A stretch of DNA of 33,386 nucleotides from Nitrospirota bacterium (GTDB lineage: Bacteria; Nitrospirota; Thermodesulfovibrionia; Thermodesulfovibrionales; Magnetobacteriaceae). The first letter of the stretch is position 1. Each line of letters starts with the position of its first letter. The stretch is taken from positions 1-33,386 of the forward strand of contig JADFXG010000034.1 of NCBI GenBank assembly GCA_015233895.1, in the 5' to 3' direction. The notes beneath the pieces are model-generated. The model did no database searches, was not told where the DNA came from, and was given only the letters and a program-made list of their open reading frames with translations. This document shows positions 5,390 to 26,506 of the stretch, piece after piece. The translations under genes and the position numbers were made by a program.

Positions 5390-5848
5390 CTAAATACTCT
5401 TTTTAACCTTTTTTACTAATACAACGCCGGTTTCCGTGTTAAAAATTATCTTTCTCCCCTGGTTTCCGCCAACATCAGAGCCGGCTATCATTATCCTTTC
5501 CTCAGAAAGTATATCCTGAGCTATCATAATGTTACGCTCACCCACATTTAAAAGCCCTGAGGAACTTTCCATTATAGCGCCACCACCAAAAACTTTTGCC
5601 TGCAGATTTCTTTTAGTACAACCAAAAGACATCACCTTCTCTATAAGCTTAGTTATTGCTATGTTTCCAAACTTTGGCGAGGCCAGTCCCTCACCGTTCC
5701 AAAGCGGCAGCAGGTAGTGGTTCATCCCGCCGCATCGCATCTGCGGATCCCACAGGCACACAGATATACAAGAGCCTAACACCGTGGTTATCTCATAGGG
5801 GGTCTTATCGGCAAGCAGAGTTCCCGGATATAAAAAGTGTGTGTTCAT
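5390..5848 (-). CDS. cheD: Chemoreceptor glutamine deamidase CheD
   Basis: CheD deamidates selected glutamines of methyl-accepting chemotaxis receptors and in some bacteria also binds the CheC phosphatase. The 152-residue protein has the catalytic cysteine in VLGSCISVCLWD (C27), the histidine in GGMNHYLLP (H44) and a threonine at position 21, the same numbering as the triad described for Thermotoga CheD. The conserved GKVFGG-type segment appears as AKVFGGGAIM. The length matches the family. It starts seven bases after the histidine-kinase-like gene and no strong Shine-Dalgarno is seen, so translational coupling is likely. No receptor, cheC, cheB or cheR lies in the window, so its targets must be encoded elsewhere. 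Confidence 0.93.
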   Translation of the reverse strand: MNTHFLYPGTLLADKTPYEITTVLGSCISVCLWDPQMRCGGMNHYLLPLWNGEGLASPKFGNIAITKLIEKVMSFGCTKRNLQAKVFGGGAIMESSSGLLNVGERNIMIAQDILSEERIMIAGSDVGGNQGRKIIFNTETGVVLVKKVKKSI

Positions 5849-5855
5849 CTATAAT

Positions 5856-6776
5856 CTAAAACTGCTGCTCATCGTCATCAAACAGAAAATCATTACCCTC
5901 TGAGGAGAAGGAATCCATATCCACCTGACCCTCCAGCTCCTGCAAAGTCAACGTAAACTCCGTCCATTTATCTATCTCAGAGTCAACTGTAATTTTACCG
6001 TTTATCAAATCAACGAGAGTCCTTACTATGCTTAAACCAAGACCATGCCCCTTGTGTGCTTTCATCAAACCAAAGTCAACCTGCACAAATCTGTCAAATA
6101 TTGCTCTCAGATTCTTGTTACTTATCCCTATGCCATAGTCTTTCACCACTATGTGGAGTAATCCATCTGCCTTTGAAAGCTTTATTTCTACAGTGCCGCC
6201 CTCTTTGCTGAATTCTATAGCATTACTTATTAAATTAGTCATAATTAACTGTAGTTTTTCAGAGTCGGTTACAAAAAAGAACTCATTTGCGTTGACCTCT
6301 GTCTCCTGAGCAAAAACAGGTGAGAAAGAAATAGTAACGCCTTTTTTTGCCGCCATCTTACTAAAAGAATCTATGATACTTGAAATAAGCGAAACCATGT
6401 CAACCATTACGTGGGTTAGTGTAGTCTCCCCCGATTCAAGTTCTGCTGCCATAAAGATGTTTTTCAACTGGAAATCCATCACAAATGACTCCTCATGAAT
6501 CAGAGCGGCTATTGATGCAATATCTGCACAATCAAGGGTTAAAGCATTTTCAGAAAGCTGAGCCGAAAGACCCATTATTGCGGTCATAGGGTTGTTTAAT
6601 TCATTTTTTATATTTGACAAGAAATTACTCTTAAGCGCCTCTGACTCCTGAAGCCTTGCATTGACCTCCTCAAGTTTCTTTGTCATCATGCGGATATCGG
6701 AAAGCGCCTTTTCCTTGTCCTCAAAGCGCTTTCTTATCTCTTCTATAAACTCATCGTCTGTTAATTTTTTCATCAT
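5856..6776 (-). CDS. Histidine-kinase-like protein without the usual phospho-acceptor histidine
   Basis: The 306-residue soluble protein has an N-terminal coiled coil (about 15-50), a HisKA-like helix pair and a GHKL ATPase domain. The ATP site looks intact: N-box NLISNAIEFS (N185), G1 box DYGIGIS (D213), F-box IFDRFVQVD and G2 box GHGLGLSIV (243-251). The H-box reads SNIKNELNNPMTAI, so asparagine 58 stands where SHELRTPL kinases carry histidine (codon AAT). It therefore probably cannot autophosphorylate in the standard way. It may act as an allosteric pseudokinase, or belong to a subfamily with another acceptor. The last residues form an acidic tail. There are no transmembrane or input domains. 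It starts four bases after dnaN and is followed by cheD, suggesting a signalling role tied to chemotaxis or to the replication operon. Confidence 0.85.
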   Translation of the reverse strand: MMKKLTDDEFIEEIRKRFEDKEKALSDIRMMTKKLEEVNARLQESEALKSNFLSNIKNELNNPMTAIMGLSAQLSENALTLDCADIASIAALIHEESFVMDFQLKNIFMAAELESGETTLTHVMVDMVSLISSIIDSFSKMAAKKGVTISFSPVFAQETEVNANEFFFVTDSEKLQLIMTNLISNAIEFSKEGGTVEIKLSKADGLLHIVVKDYGIGISNKNLRAIFDRFVQVDFGLMKAHKGHGLGLSIVRTLVDLINGKITVDSEIDKWTEFTLTLQELEGQVDMDSFSSEGNDFLFDDDEQQF

Positions 6777-7909: not shown

Positions 7910-9241
7910 TTATGGTTTTATTCTGTTTATTAACTGTTCCACTACTTTTCCGAAGTTTTCATCGTTGCCTATTTTACTTTCAACCTGTTTACAAGCATAA
8001 ATAACCGTAGCATGGTCTTTTCCTCCAAATGACTTTCCTATATCGCCAAGGGATAAATCTGTAAGCTGCTTGATAATATACATAGCCACCTGCCTGGGAA
8101 CAGTGATTTCTTTAGTGCGTTTTTTAGCCTTTATGTCTATAGGTTTTATGTTAAAGTATTCACATACCATTTTTTGTATATGCTCGGCACTGATAGGTTT
8201 GAAATCATCAACAAATATGTCCTTTAAGACGTCTTTTGCCATAGCAATGTTAATAGGGTTTCCCGTAAGGTTAGAGTTTGCCGCAAGTTTTATGAGACAG
8301 CCCTCAAGCTCCCTGATGTTAGACCTGATGCGTGAGGCAAGGTAGTAGGCCATATCATCTTGCAGGAAAATCTTCTGGTTTTCCGCTTTTCTTTGTAAAA
8401 TAGCAACCTTAAGCTCAATTGAGGGCGGCTGAATGTCAGCAATCAATCCCATCGTAAAACGCGACTTCAGACGGTCGGTTATCGAGGTCAGCTCCTTAGG
8501 GGGTCTGTCGGCTGAAATTATTATCTGTTTCTGCCTTTCATAGAGAGCGTTAAAAGTGTGAAAAAACTCCTCCTGCGTTTGAGTCTTGTTTGCTATAAAC
8601 TGGACATCGTCAATAAGCAGAGCATCAAGTCCCCTGTACTTGTCCTTTAATTCTCCCATTTTCTCGTGTCTGATGGCTGATACCACCTCATTGGTAAACT
8701 GCTCTGATGAGACGTACATGACAGCAGCATTTGGGTCTCTGTCTATCACCATGTTGCCTATAGCGCTTATCAGGTGCGTCTTACCAAGCCCTACATCGCC
8801 GTATATAAACAGTGGATTATATGTTTTTCCCAAAGACTCTCCAACGGCAAGAGCTGCTGCATGGGCAAACTGGTTACTTGGCCCCACTACAAAGTTCTCA
8901 AACGTATATTTCGGATTAAGATGAATCCCTTTATTGGCTAATCTAGTTCTGCGGGTTTGCATTATAGTGTCTTTTTTTGCAATCTCGCTTGTCTGCGGCT
9001 GATCCACCTTAAAGACAACATTAATCTGTTTTGAAAGCACAGTCTCTAATGCCTTGTTAAACAGTTGCGGGTAATTGTCCTCTATCCATTCCCTGAAAAA
9101 CCTGTTGGGAACAGACAGCACTGCACTGTGATCTTTAATCTCCAAAGGCTTAACGGGTTTAAACCAAAGCTCAAATGCTGCCCCACCTACGGATTCCTGT
9201 AAAACTCCTTGTACCTTCTGCCAAATCTCTTCAATTTCCAT
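7910..9241 (-). CDS. dnaA: Chromosomal replication initiator DnaA
   Basis: DnaA binds 9-base boxes at oriC and unwinds the origin when ATP-bound. The 443-residue protein shows domain I (about 1-80), a short linker, the AAA+ domain with Walker A GDVGLGKTH (148-156) and Walker B ALLIDDVQF, sensor-type segments (TSITDRLKSRF) and the DNA-binding domain IV signature GGKDHATVIYACKQVES. The start at 9239-9241 is fixed by an in-frame stop three codons upstream. No good Shine-Dalgarno lies within 15 bases; the AAGGAG present is about 45 bases upstream. The region before it carries inverted DnaA-box-like sites, so autoregulation is likely. It is the first gene of the block ending in gyrA. Confidence 0.97.
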   Translation of the reverse strand: MEIEEIWQKVQGVLQESVGGAAFELWFKPVKPLEIKDHSAVLSVPNRFFREWIEDNYPQLFNKALETVLSKQINVVFKVDQPQTSEIAKKDTIMQTRRTRLANKGIHLNPKYTFENFVVGPSNQFAHAAALAVGESLGKTYNPLFIYGDVGLGKTHLISAIGNMVIDRDPNAAVMYVSSEQFTNEVVSAIRHEKMGELKDKYRGLDALLIDDVQFIANKTQTQEEFFHTFNALYERQKQIIISADRPPKELTSITDRLKSRFTMGLIADIQPPSIELKVAILQRKAENQKIFLQDDMAYYLASRIRSNIRELEGCLIKLAANSNLTGNPINIAMAKDVLKDIFVDDFKPISAEHIQKMVCEYFNIKPIDIKAKKRTKEITVPRQVAMYIIKQLTDLSLGDIGKSFGGKDHATVIYACKQVESKIGNDENFGKVVEQLINRIKP

Positions 9242-9254
9242 AAGTTTTCAACAA

Positions 9255-9276
9255 ATTATCAACAATTGTTAATAAT
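9255..9276. promoter_or_regulatory. Head-to-head DnaA-box-like palindrome upstream of dnaA
   Basis: A 22-base near-perfect palindrome (10 of 11 arm pairs match) is formed by TTATCAACA on the plus strand and TTATTAACA on the minus strand, meeting at AATT. It lies 14-35 bases before the dnaA start codon, inside the likely leader. Binding of DnaA here, or folding of the mRNA, could limit dnaA expression. Its role is inferred. Confidence 0.5.
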
Positions 9277-9422
9277 TCCTAAATAACTCCTTTCAAAAAA
9301 TGATAATAAATTGTTCATATCTAAGTATAATTTTAAATTGTTGATAAGTGTGTAATTTGCGCTAAATACCAAACAAAAAAGCAAACACGATAAGTATCTT
9401 TTAAATCTATATTTTTTACAGG

Positions 9423-9479
9423 TTTTCAACATTTTACCGCCCTCTACTGTTACTACTGTTTTCTTTATATATATAGTAA
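9423..9479 (+). other. Basal-unwinding-like element: DnaA box, GC cluster, trios, AT tract
   Basis: In order on the plus strand are a box-like TTTTCAACA (9423-9431), the GC cluster ACCGCCC (9436-9442), five triplets CTA CTG TTA CTA CTG (9444-9458) and an AT-rich tract ending in TATATATATAG (to 9476). Read 3' to 5', the complementary strand gives GAT GAC AAT GAT GAC, close to the DnaA-trio pattern described at Bacillus-type origins. That order (box, GC spacer, trios, unwinding region) is the published layout. The unwinding site would then be on the prfB side. Two triplets end in C, which departs from the strict motif. Confidence 0.5.
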
Positions 9480-9487
9480 TAGAAGGA

Positions 9488-10595
9488 TTAAGCATTTTTT
9501 CTCCGTATTAAATATTCCTTTATAAAAGAACCGATCTCACCATCAAGTACGGCATTAACGTTACCCATCTCGTACCCTGTTCTGTGATCTTTAATCAGCC
9601 TGTATGGATGAAGCACGTATGAGCGAATCTGATTTCCCCACTGAATGTTTTTTTTGTCACCTATGATACCGTCAAGTTTTTTCTCCTGCTCTAAGACCTG
9701 AAGCTCATAGAGCCTGGATTTAAGAATGCGCATGGCTCTTTCCTTGTTTTTGTGTTGAGAGCGTTCATTTTGGCATGAAACCACAATTGACGATGGCAAA
9801 TGAGTAATTCTTACAGCCGATGAGACCTTGTTAACGTGCTGGCCTCCGGCGCCGGAGGCTCTAAAGGTATCAATTTTTAAGTCATCGTCTTTAATCTCTA
9901 CTTCAATATCTTTTTCTATCTCAGGATATGCCAACACGGCGGCAAATGAGGTATGTCTGCGTTTGTTTGTATCAAAGGGGGAAATTCTTACAAGCCTGTG
10001 CACTCCTATTTCAGAGCGCAGGTAACCATAGGCATACGGGCCGCTTATAGTCATCATAACGCTTTTAATTCCTGCCTCATCCCCGTTAAGTAAGTCAATA
10101 ATTTCAGCCTTAAATGAGTTTCTTTCGGCCCATCGTAAGTACAATCTCATAAGCATCTGAGCCCAGTCCTGGCTCTCAGTGCCGCCTGCCCCCGGATGTA
10201 TTTCCACTATTGCGTCACAGTCGTCAAATTTCCCGCTTAGAAGGTGCTTTAACTCAAGAGAGCCAATTTTTTCCACCGTGCTGTTTAATTTCTCTTCAAA
10301 CTCGGTTAAGAAAAGCTGGCCGTCCTCCTCATCAAGTATGGACACAGACTCTGAAAGGTAGTTTACATCCCCCTCCACATCAAAATAAGACTTCACTATA
10401 TCCTGAGCCCTTGACTGCTTTTTCTTTAGCTCTGACACTTTCTCGTGATCAGACCAGTTGTCTTTAACACTAAGCTCTGTCTCTATATCGGATATCTCTT
10501 TAAGCAAAGTTTCCACTTCAAAGATAACCTCTGAGATGATTTAATTGCAGCTCAAGAGGTTTTATTTTTTCTTTTATTTCAACAACTCCTGTCAT
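9488..10595 (-). CDS. prfB: Peptide chain release factor 2, with programmed +1 frameshift
   Basis: RF2 releases finished proteins at UGA and UAA. The main frame (342 codons from 10516) holds the stop-recognition tripeptide SPF (VRISPFDTNKRRH) and the catalytic GGQ (RASGAGGQHVNKVSS). The gene begins further upstream: an ATG at 10593-10595 with GGAGG ten bases before it starts a 25-codon zero frame ending CTT TGA. A +1 slip on CTT continues as GAA GTG GAA in the main frame, giving about 368 residues, the usual RF2 size. The start lies seven bases past the lnt stop, and its GGAGG is made from the last lnt codons, so the two genes are co-transcribed and probably coupled. RF2 scarcity should favour frameshifting (autoregulation), as in E. 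coli. Confidence 0.95.
10518..10532 (-). other. prfB: prfB +1 frameshift site
   Basis: The mRNA-sense sequence is AGAGGTTATCTTTGA, with the slippery CTT at 10521-10523 and the in-frame TGA at 10518-10520. Three bases upstream of CTT is AGAGGT, a weaker internal Shine-Dalgarno than the E. coli AGGGGG. The base after the stop is A rather than the common C. Confidence 0.92.
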
Positions 10596-24631: not shown

Positions 24632-26133
24632 AATGCACCCTCCAGCGCTCGCTTAAAATCAAGAGCGGTTTTGATTTTAATTTCAGGCTGGTCTATAAGT
24701 GCCTCATCAATCACCTCGGCCAGCTTCTTAGGTATGTTGGGATTCCTCTTCAGTATGGGTACCGGTTTGCTCTGAAGCACTATGTACCATGGGTCTTTGC
24801 CTTTTGGGAAATCTCTGGGAAAACGCCCGGTAAGCATGTAATAAAATGTGGCTGCCATAGCCCAGACATCTGCCTCCGGTTTTGAGTACTTGAAATTTAT
24901 CACCTGCTGTCTGGACATAAAAACAGGGGTGCCGGCAGATGCTCCGGTGCGGGTGTAACCGCTTAAACCTGCAGCATCAAATGCTTTACCCAATCCAAAA
25001 TCTGCTATTTTTGTTAATCTTGTTCCAGAGGCTTCTGTTAAGAATATGTTAGTAGGTTTTATATCTCTGTGAATTAATCCCTTTAGTGTTACAATAGAGG
25101 CGTCAGCCAGTTTGACGTTAGGAATTTCAAGTGTATGGGCATAGTGCAGCCCGTCAAGAGATTGCAGTATCATATTGGTGGCCTCCTCGACACTTAGCCG
25201 TCCACCCTGTGCCATCATTATTTTATCTATACTGCCCCCCTCGCAGTACTCAAGGGTGAAGTAAAAGGTGCCGCGTGAGTTACCGTAGTCAAGCAGTTGC
25301 ACGACGTTTGGGTGTTTTAAGTGTTTGGTGTTTTCCACCTCCCGAAGAAACATCTCCTTGGAGCGCTCATTGACGGCAACCTCTGAGAGCATCACCTTTA
25401 GAGCAACATCTCTGCCGGTCTCTATATGTTTGGCAAGATAGACGGCGCCCATGCCGCCCTTTCCGATTTCTTTTAATATTTTATATCCGTGGATTTCAAG
25501 TGTATCTTTGTCTTTTTCCTCTGCCGGCACAAGGGATTTCACTACCTGCATGGGATCGTCACGGCAGACGGTGCAAAGCCCTGAGGACTGTTCAACACTG
25601 TCTTTACTGAGGGTTTTTCCACAGCCGGTGCATTTGGCCAATGGGGTAACAGTATCCTTTTGAGTTTTATTTTCAGTGCAGGTCTTACAGATATAACTAC
25701 CGTCCTTGGTTTTGTACTCAGCAATATTATCAAAGGGTAAATCAGACCCGCATACTGAACATGTTGGGGATTCATACGTTTTGACTTTAAAAACAGTCGA
25801 ACCGAGTTTAATTTCATCCCCTTTTTTCAGATCGTATTCGGGAAACTCCAGCTGAGATATTTCGTTAATGTCCTGAGTTTTCTGGCGTTGGCCAATCTTC
25901 ATGCCATTGACATAGGTGCCGTTTAAGCTGCCGAAGTCTTTGATTCTTATGCCGGGTGGGTTTATATCCAAAAGACAGTGGTGGCGGGAAATTGTGCGGT
26001 GTTCATCATCATCGGGAAGGCGGGGGCTGCAGTCAACACCCCTGCCAATTATGCAGGTGGTACGCTCCAAAAATTTATATTTTTTACCTTTGAGCTTACC
26101 CTCCGTAACCTCAAGGACGACTTTTGCCGGCAA
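24628..26133 (-). CDS. FHA-zinc-ribbon-Ser/Thr protein kinase
   Basis: The 501-residue protein has an N-terminal FHA domain (about 5-117: IIGRGVD, SRHH at 49-52, GSLNGTYVNG). Two zinc-finger-like cysteine pairs-of-pairs follow (C125/C128 with C149/C152; C168/C171 with C187/C190), then a Hanks-type kinase domain (about 216-500). The kinase has IGKGGMGAVYLAK, K246, HRDIKPTN (D357) and DFGLGK. The usual APE motif is replaced: GTPVFMSRQQ instead of GTPxYMAPEQ. The start is a TTG at 26131-26133, chosen because GGAGGG lies five bases upstream and no in-frame ATG fits. The first gene of the operon, it is preceded by a long leader. The FHA domain could bind its own autophosphorylated threonines or those of the WD40 kinase. 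Confidence 0.92.
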   Translation of the reverse strand: MPAKVVLEVTEGKLKGKKYKFLERTTCIIGRGVDCSPRLPDDDEHRTISRHHCLLDINPPGIRIKDFGSLNGTYVNGMKIGQRQKTQDINEISQLEFPEYDLKKGDEIKLGSTVFKVKTYESPTCSVCGSDLPFDNIAEYKTKDGSYICKTCTENKTQKDTVTPLAKCTGCGKTLSKDSVEQSSGLCTVCRDDPMQVVKSLVPAEEKDKDTLEIHGYKILKEIGKGGMGAVYLAKHIETGRDVALKVMLSEVAVNERSKEMFLREVENTKHLKHPNVVQLLDYGNSRGTFYFTLEYCEGGSIDKIMMAQGGRLSVEEATNMILQSLDGLHYAHTLEIPNVKLADASIVTLKGLIHRDIKPTNIFLTEASGTRLTKIADFGLGKAFDAAGLSGYTRTGASAGTPVFMSRQQVINFKYSKPEADVWAMAATFYYMLTGRFPRDFPKGKDPWYIVLQSKPVPILKRNPNIPKKLAEVIDEALIDQPEIKIKTALDFKRALEGAL

Positions 26134-26286
26134 AACGCCCTCCGTATGATTATTAATTAATAAAATTGCTGACGCTAACCCGGTTAATTAACCCCTGCTG
26201 CCGTTTTTTAATTGTGCGCTTCTCCATGAATACCCCTTCAGCAGTCAGCGGTTGCCAGAGATAGCGCTTTCATTTCACCACGTCAG
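26134..26286 (-). promoter_or_regulatory. Structured 5' leader of the kinase/phosphatase operon
   Basis: The roughly 145-base leader between promoter and TTG start contains several inverted repeats. A nine-base stem with one bulge pairs 26216-26224 with 26258-26267 (GCGCTTCTC against GAGATAGCGC). CTGCTG (26195-26200) can pair with CAGCAG (26239-26244), and GCTGAC (26168-26173) with GTCAGC (26244-26249). GGTTAATTAACC (26182-26193) and a 14-base AT palindrome (26150-26163) are self-complementary. The overlapping pairings suggest alternative folds. I do not recognise a known riboswitch class. Confidence 0.4.
26153..26227 (-). CDS. Possible 24-residue leader peptide
   Basis: An ATG at 26225-26227 with AAGGGG five bases upstream opens a 24-codon frame (MEKRTIKKRQQG and so on) that ends at TAA 26153-26155, 19 bases before the FHA kinase start. 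Its ribosome-binding site is inside the loop of the leader hairpin. The peptide is basic and has no recognisable relatives. It could be a regulatory upstream ORF or chance. Confidence 0.25.
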   Translation of the reverse strand: MEKRTIKKRQQGLINRVSVSNFIN

Positions 26287-26316
26287 ACTATAGCAAAGTC
26301 ACACTGTTTATGTCAA
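26287..26316 (-). promoter_or_regulatory. Promoter of the kinase/phosphatase operon
   Basis: On the minus strand TTGACA (26311-26316), an 18-base spacer and TATAGT (26287-26292) form a good sigma-70-type promoter. Transcription would start near 26280, giving the long leader. Confidence 0.65.
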
Positions 26317-26506
26317 TATTGGCAGGTTGCAGTGTTTCAACAAAAAAATAGTTTAATGTTTATTTATCACTTAAATTCCCTTATCATAATTCCTTTTTTG
26401 ACAGCTTTGTGGTAATATAATGCAGGTGTACGGGATAAAATATGAAAAAAATCAAAAGTTTTTTTATGTTGAGTAAAATACCAGTAATTGTGTAAATTAA
26501 CAGACT
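26317..26506. other. Divergent intergenic region, plus-strand promoter not resolved
   Basis: The minus-strand promoter and leader fill the other half of this gap. In these 190 bases I see AT-rich DNA with a TTGACA (26398-26403) and a TATAAT (26416-26421) on the plus strand. They are only 12 bases apart, too close to work together. A 17-codon frame (26442-26495) has no supporting feature. Confidence 0.4.

Follow-up and report, generated by a model that had tools for sequence, protein, structure and literature searches.

In Bacillus subtilis oriC, the basal unwinding system (BUS) is made of a DnaA box, a GC-containing spacer, consecutive 3'-GA(T/A/C)-5' trios and then AT-rich DNA, an arrangement shared with its predicted relatives, as the accessible text of PMC8287927 and PMC10721633 describes them, and with the locus presented here. 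A 2021 survey predicted a BUS in 1755 of 2070 origins (85%), and unwinding assays have been done with the DnaA proteins of three Gram-negative-type species, H. pylori, S. elongatus and D. radiodurans (PMC8287927). In a cryo-EM structure, DnaA protomers capture the G-A dinucleotide and leave the third base free; the same source states that the placement of two helicases on opposite strands at one origin is not understood (PMC10721633). B. subtilis also carries the DnaD recognition element (DRE), a single-strand element with TnnT spacing, and the paper describing it raises the question of what DnaD-less bacteria use, suggesting DnaA domain I or species-specific proteins (PMC10201434). In Thermotoga maritima, DnaA on separate boxes captures single-stranded TAG repeats (eTrio/ssDUE recruitment; PMC10316083).

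The window analysed here, 33,386 nucleotides long, is an entire contig (C34) of a 3.71-Mb genome in 65 contigs. By DnaA, its closest named relatives are Nitrospirota, for example Candidatus Magnetocorallium paracelense (68%). The genes prfB, dnaA, dnaN, a histidine kinase gene, cheD, gyrB and gyrA follow one another in this order on the minus strand, and the prfB-dnaA gap occupies 9242-9487. The GTG start of the main prfB frame comes just after a CTTTGA stretch (10515-10530, minus strand), which we take, by eye, to resemble the usual RF2 programmed frameshift site. The histidine kinase and CheD genes (5390-6776, minus strand), lying between dnaN and gyrB, are an unusual insertion in the cluster. 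The features of the gap and of its two flanking genes are as follows.

7910-9241, minus strand: dnaA (443 aa), with domains Bac_DnaA, DnaA_N and Bac_DnaA_C.
9245-9275, both strands: three DnaA-box variants just before dnaA, read from the sequence, namely TTTTCAACA at 9245-9253 (plus), TTATCAACA at 9256-9264 (plus) and TTATTAACA at 9267-9275 (minus).
9339-9347, minus strand: DnaA box TTATCAACA within the gap, 1 mismatch.
9423-9431, plus strand: DnaA box TTTTCAACA adjoining the main array, 2 mismatches to TTATCCACA.
9432-9443, plus strand: spacer TTTTACCGCCCT, 12 bp, holding the GC cluster.
9444-9458, minus strand: main DnaA-trio array CAG TAG TAA CAG TAG (plus-strand reading CTA CTG TTA CTA CTG), from sequence and conservation.
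9459-9473, no strand assigned: AT core TTTTCTTTATATATA, the presumed site of first melting.
9474-9485, plus strand: mirrored second trio array TAG TAA TAG AAG (dnaA-sense reading CTTCTATTACTA), from shuffles and conservation.
9488-10516, minus strand: main prfB reading frame, with domains PCRF and RF-1; its stop codon is at 9488-9490.

The initial annotation had placed a Bacillus-like unwinding element of a candidate oriC at 9423-9479. Box, GC cluster, five triplets and AT tract are all present in the order it gave (9423-9473), and the main array with its triplets, spacer and box is conserved upstream of dnaA across the order, the outcome of the comparison with relatives that the annotation had proposed as a check. 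Its right-hand limit did not hold: position 9479 falls within the mirrored array (9474-9485), which had gone unnoticed and been taken for AT tract; the stretch TATATATATAG at 9466-9476 overlaps both the AT core and the start of that array. Nor does the locus extend the known distribution of the motif, given the frequency at which the survey cited above already predicted it. By the search rules published in the accessible text of PMC8287927, the main array is, on its sequence, an ordinary member of the BUS class: the box has two mismatches, where at most two are allowed, the box-to-trio spacer measures 12 bp (9432-9443) against a maximum of 16 bp, and five consecutive NAN trios stand on the minus strand, where the rule asks for at least three. 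The Bacillota loci that we examined have the same element order and spacing. In relatives the spacer region holds G/C plus a second, degenerate box, and in 46 of 85 scored upstreams of the order the best box match to the right of the main array agrees in 7 or more of the 9 letters; in the window too the second box by the spacer is degenerate, unlike that of the B. subtilis BUS as described in the sources at hand. Scored by weights that follow the published trio consensus, the main array reaches 12.4, and no other 15-mer on either strand of the 33-kb window has this score. Fifteen-mers scoring as high number four in 800 kb of a same-genus genome, and one is present in 5 of 2000 dinucleotide shuffles of the prfB-dnaA gap. 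Among solved chains, the one closest to the DnaA protein is 8btg, which represents DnaA in the cryo-EM structure of the BUS; the arginine finger R264 is retained, and ISM I190 is conservatively replaced by V.

The gap is very probably, short of proof, the chromosome replication origin. The GC-skew minimum that the initial annotation had proposed as a check was found where expected in one genome and was not sharp in the window's own genus. The complete genome G014, from another family of the order, gives a cumulative skew curve (20 samples of 20 kb) in the shape of a clean V, the minimum of which is at dnaA. In G087, a complete genome of the same genus, the curve (40 samples) is noisy and broad, with a minimum roughly 40-120 kb upstream of dnaA, and gene orientation confounds it there. 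The local minimum of the window lies near 25 kb and not at dnaA; the skew changes sign at about 25000-26500, between diverging gene blocks.

What sets this locus apart from the B. subtilis BUS, as far as the accessible descriptions go, is a second trio-type array, boxless and reversed in polarity, which occupies the opposite strand on the far side of the AT core from the main array, 2 bp from the prfB stop. Its score was reached in none of 300 shuffles of the window's flank. The two-sided motif occurs once in the window and, in 800 kb of G087, at the origin plus one other place. In relatives, the far side of the AT core carries a CTACTATTACTA-type stretch in dnaA-sense reading. In G014 the main array is below the score threshold and is not counted; by eye, TACTACTATCC stands there across a TTTATTTATATATAAAA core.

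The conservation of the mirrored array was assessed on upstream regions of the order, 80 of which were fetched after the array had first been noticed. L004 and L105, with just 10 nt of upstream, were dropped before the counts. In a shuffle test, for which 88 of 113 upstreams were scorable, the mean mirrored score was 8.50, compared with 5.51 for dinucleotide shuffles and 5.01 for arrays of the same polarity, and the array was significant at p<=0.05 in 55 of the 88. A positional test, which uses no shuffles, locates the highest-scoring mirrored 12-mer in the entire upstream (~660 nt) and counts it if it lies 8-25 nt from the main array. L003, L005, L006 and L007, records lacking a genome handle, were dropped before this test (L003 matches L093, L005 matches L142 and L006 matches L159; L007 was scored later as L309). 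In all, 34 of 129 upstreams stayed unscored, namely 24 of 109 (23 with a weak main array, one too short) and 10 of the 20 of the last batch. The mirrored array stood at the 8-25 nt gap in 67 of the 85 scored genomes and was missing by this test in 18; arrays of the same polarity, taken as a control, stood there in 3 of 85. It was present in 42 of 55 genera and in at least one genome of each of 12 scored families; the rate was 21 of 25 in the set where the pattern was noticed and 46 of 60 in the set fetched later. Chance arising from AT-richness is ruled out by the shuffle tests, the same-polarity control and the later-fetched set. It is very likely that the two-array pattern is real.

The pattern has limits within and beyond the order. 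In the last batch of 20 upstreams the mirrored array was found in 5 of 10 scored; none of the 4 from family f10 had it, and 5 of the 6 from other families did. Family f10 (eight upstreams fetched, L293-L300) is a single genus with genomes of about 1.9 Mb, probably Thermodesulfovibrio, and keeps the main array. Among Bacillota, the shuffle test hardly departs from chance (p<=0.05 in 9 of 62), and 17 of 62 have the array by the positional test, each of them a low-scoring, AT-only match on a background that differs because most of the 660 nt there is coding. A score of at least 9 with the right spacing is found in 39 of 85 upstreams of the order and in 0 of 62 in Bacillota. The mirror position is occupied in 1 of 13 scored (20 upstreams) in other classes of the phylum, and in 2 of 4 scored (19 upstreams; L232, fetched for G014, left out) in other orders of the class. 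The mirrored array is weak or absent in Bacillota and in other Nitrospirota classes; a weak version may exist in Bacillota.

One rival account would be that the locus is an ordinary one-sided BUS, in which the main array does everything, the mirrored array being a low-complexity or easily melted edge of the AT core with no protein of its own. An AT-rich flank is indeed the published norm (PMC8287927), no mirror is seen in family f10, and in Bacillota an AT core suffices. However, the dinucleotide shuffles retain composition and lose the mirrored signal, and same-polarity arrays are not enriched at the mirror position. The composition of the triplets also speaks against it. When triplets were picked by their middle T alone, the mirrored array was recovered in 40 of 55 genera, compared with 35% of shuffles, and position 1 was C in 53% of triplets as against 25% in shuffles, which corresponds to G-A on the other strand, the pair of bases held by DnaA protomers in the cryo-EM structure (PMC10721633); a C at this position raises duplex stability rather than lowering it. 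We regard the one-sided account as unlikely.

Another possibility is that the array is the equivalent of the DRE, a plus-strand TAGTAATAG with TnnT repeats, read in single-stranded form by DciA, DnaA domain I or another factor that recruits the helicase. It lies on the strand where a DRE would be, opposite to that of the trios, and the TnnT spacing is present: plus-strand 9474-9485, TAGTAATAGAAG, agrees with the DRE rule of paired TnnT motifs opposite the trios, which is a loose pattern. In this the element resembles the DRE of B. subtilis as presented in PMC10201434 (accessible text). The protein repertoire is compatible as well, since all 27 chosen genomes have DciA and none of the 27 gave a hit to the DnaD-type domain PF07261, for which B. 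subtilis and L. lactis were positive as controls; the lack of a detected DnaD is itself a difference from B. subtilis. On the other hand, the B. subtilis DRE sits opposite the trios themselves, whereas the element here is beyond the AT core. Moreover, the shift at position 3 of the mirrored triplets (A in 55%, against 44% of shuffles) is smaller than that at position 1, so that the GA of a trio is preferred more strongly than the outer T of a TnnT repeat. Finally, f10, without the mirror, has the same loader set (DciA present, DnaD not detected). Such an equivalence appears improbable, to about the same degree as the one-sided account. A link between the mirrored array and DciA presence was ruled out separately, DciA being found in all 27 genomes, mirror-less f10 included. 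Since f10 has the same loaders without the mirror, DciA-type loading does not require the mirrored array, which can be dispensed with and whose occurrence is not tied to the loader.

A third explanation treats the arrays as two arms of an inverted repeat located at the 3' end of prfB, forming an RNA or cruciform hairpin that serves as a terminator or processing signal and has nothing to do with the origin. In the 67 genomes that carry it, the mirrored array comes after the prfB stop in 49, overlaps it in 6 and lies inside prfB in 5, prfB being unrecognised in 7; it is thus just past the stop in most genomes. The arms are complementary by nature, and the folding energy of the stretch in the window is -11.3 kcal/mol (z -2.1), a value that 7 of 200 shuffles match. 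Yet exchanging the left arrays among genomes leaves pairing as good as before (8.71 vs 8.67, with 783 of 2000 permutations at or above), and the MFE is -10.02, compared with -10.18 for swapped arrays (sd 0.25); pairing between the mirrored and main arrays is not fine-tuned. A T tract and a terminator-like site were looked for and not found, and the right arm is the BUS, retained in Bacillota although a strong left arm is lacking there. A hairpin or terminator at the prfB end was rejected on the swapped arms and the lack of a terminator, and we consider it very improbable.

We favour, at even odds, a two-sided BUS at the origin, in which the second array would hold the other strand in bacteria where DnaD is not detected. 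In a fuller form, to which we give appreciably less credit, most members of this one Nitrospirota order would carry convergent trio arrays around an AT core, with DnaA capturing both strands and a landing site for helicase on each. Taken separately, the chances that the mirrored array functions as DnaA-trios are about even, and those of a role for the second helicase less than even. Both arrays, their polarity, spacing and conservation, the lack of an outer box and the presence of DciA without detected DnaD are read from sequence. The pattern is well supported; the mechanism, that is, DnaA binding to the mirrored array and service of this array in second-helicase loading, is what we infer from it.

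In the two-sided BUS, DnaA would load on the box at 9423-9431, form an oligomer that grows over the main trios (minus strand, 9444-9458) and open the AT core, as in the BUS model. Opening of the core would render the mirrored trios (plus strand, 9474-9485) single-stranded at the distal end of a ~42-nt bubble (9444-9485). The two arrays and the core between them span 42 nt, close to the size of the B. subtilis open complex, about 40 nt according to PMC13326638. A second set of DnaA domain-III subunits would then most likely capture the other strand at the mirrored trios; we place a second set there because the array has trio grammar in opposite polarity and no box of its own. These subunits might be carried over, or they might arrive by looping from the boxes close to dnaA. 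Capture in opposite polarity would leave each strand with a DnaA end facing the core, so that the strands are held apart and both are marked for helicase delivery, probably with DciA.

Several points count against this two-sided BUS: the array is missing from f10 and from 18 of the 85 scored genomes, Bacillota have a weak AT-only version, trio-like arrays could also be TnnT sites for another protein, and the skew minimum is not sharp at dnaA in the window's own genus. In addition, no DnaA box adjoins the mirrored array, which leaves DnaA loading there unexplained. A box outside the array is not enriched, at least 7 of 9 letters being matched in 4 of 66 cases, compared with 2.4% of control stretches. 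Two complete BUS modules facing each other are ruled out on this ground. The Thermotoga maritima system suggests a possible use of a boxless array, capture by DnaA bound elsewhere; it differs in that the TAG repeats there are within one DUE strand, with no opposite-polarity pair described in the accessible part of PMC10316083.

In the accessible literature, including the accessible text of PMC8287927, PMC10721633, PMC10316083, PMC8235120, PMC7561715, PMC13220808, PMC13326638, PMC10201434 and PMC5109545, mirrored trio arrays are not reported. A mirrored copy of the trios could contribute to an understanding of how the two strands of DNA are dealt with at the start of replication. For two-helicase placement, conservation of a further trio-like array on the opposite strand offers a concrete, mutable hypothesis and, if the hypothesis is true, DnaD-less bacteria would have a sequence-encoded answer to the loading of two helicases in opposite directions. 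The closely related f10, which is mirror-less, provides a natural comparison.

The boxes near dnaA form a further conserved element of these upstreams. A convergent box pair (TYAYYAACA, then TGTT) within 110 nt of dnaA is present in 68 of 109 upstreams of the order and in 0 of 104 control stretches; it may have a role in dnaA autoregulation or in recruiting single-stranded DNA. The box variant favours TTATNAACA over TTATCCACA.
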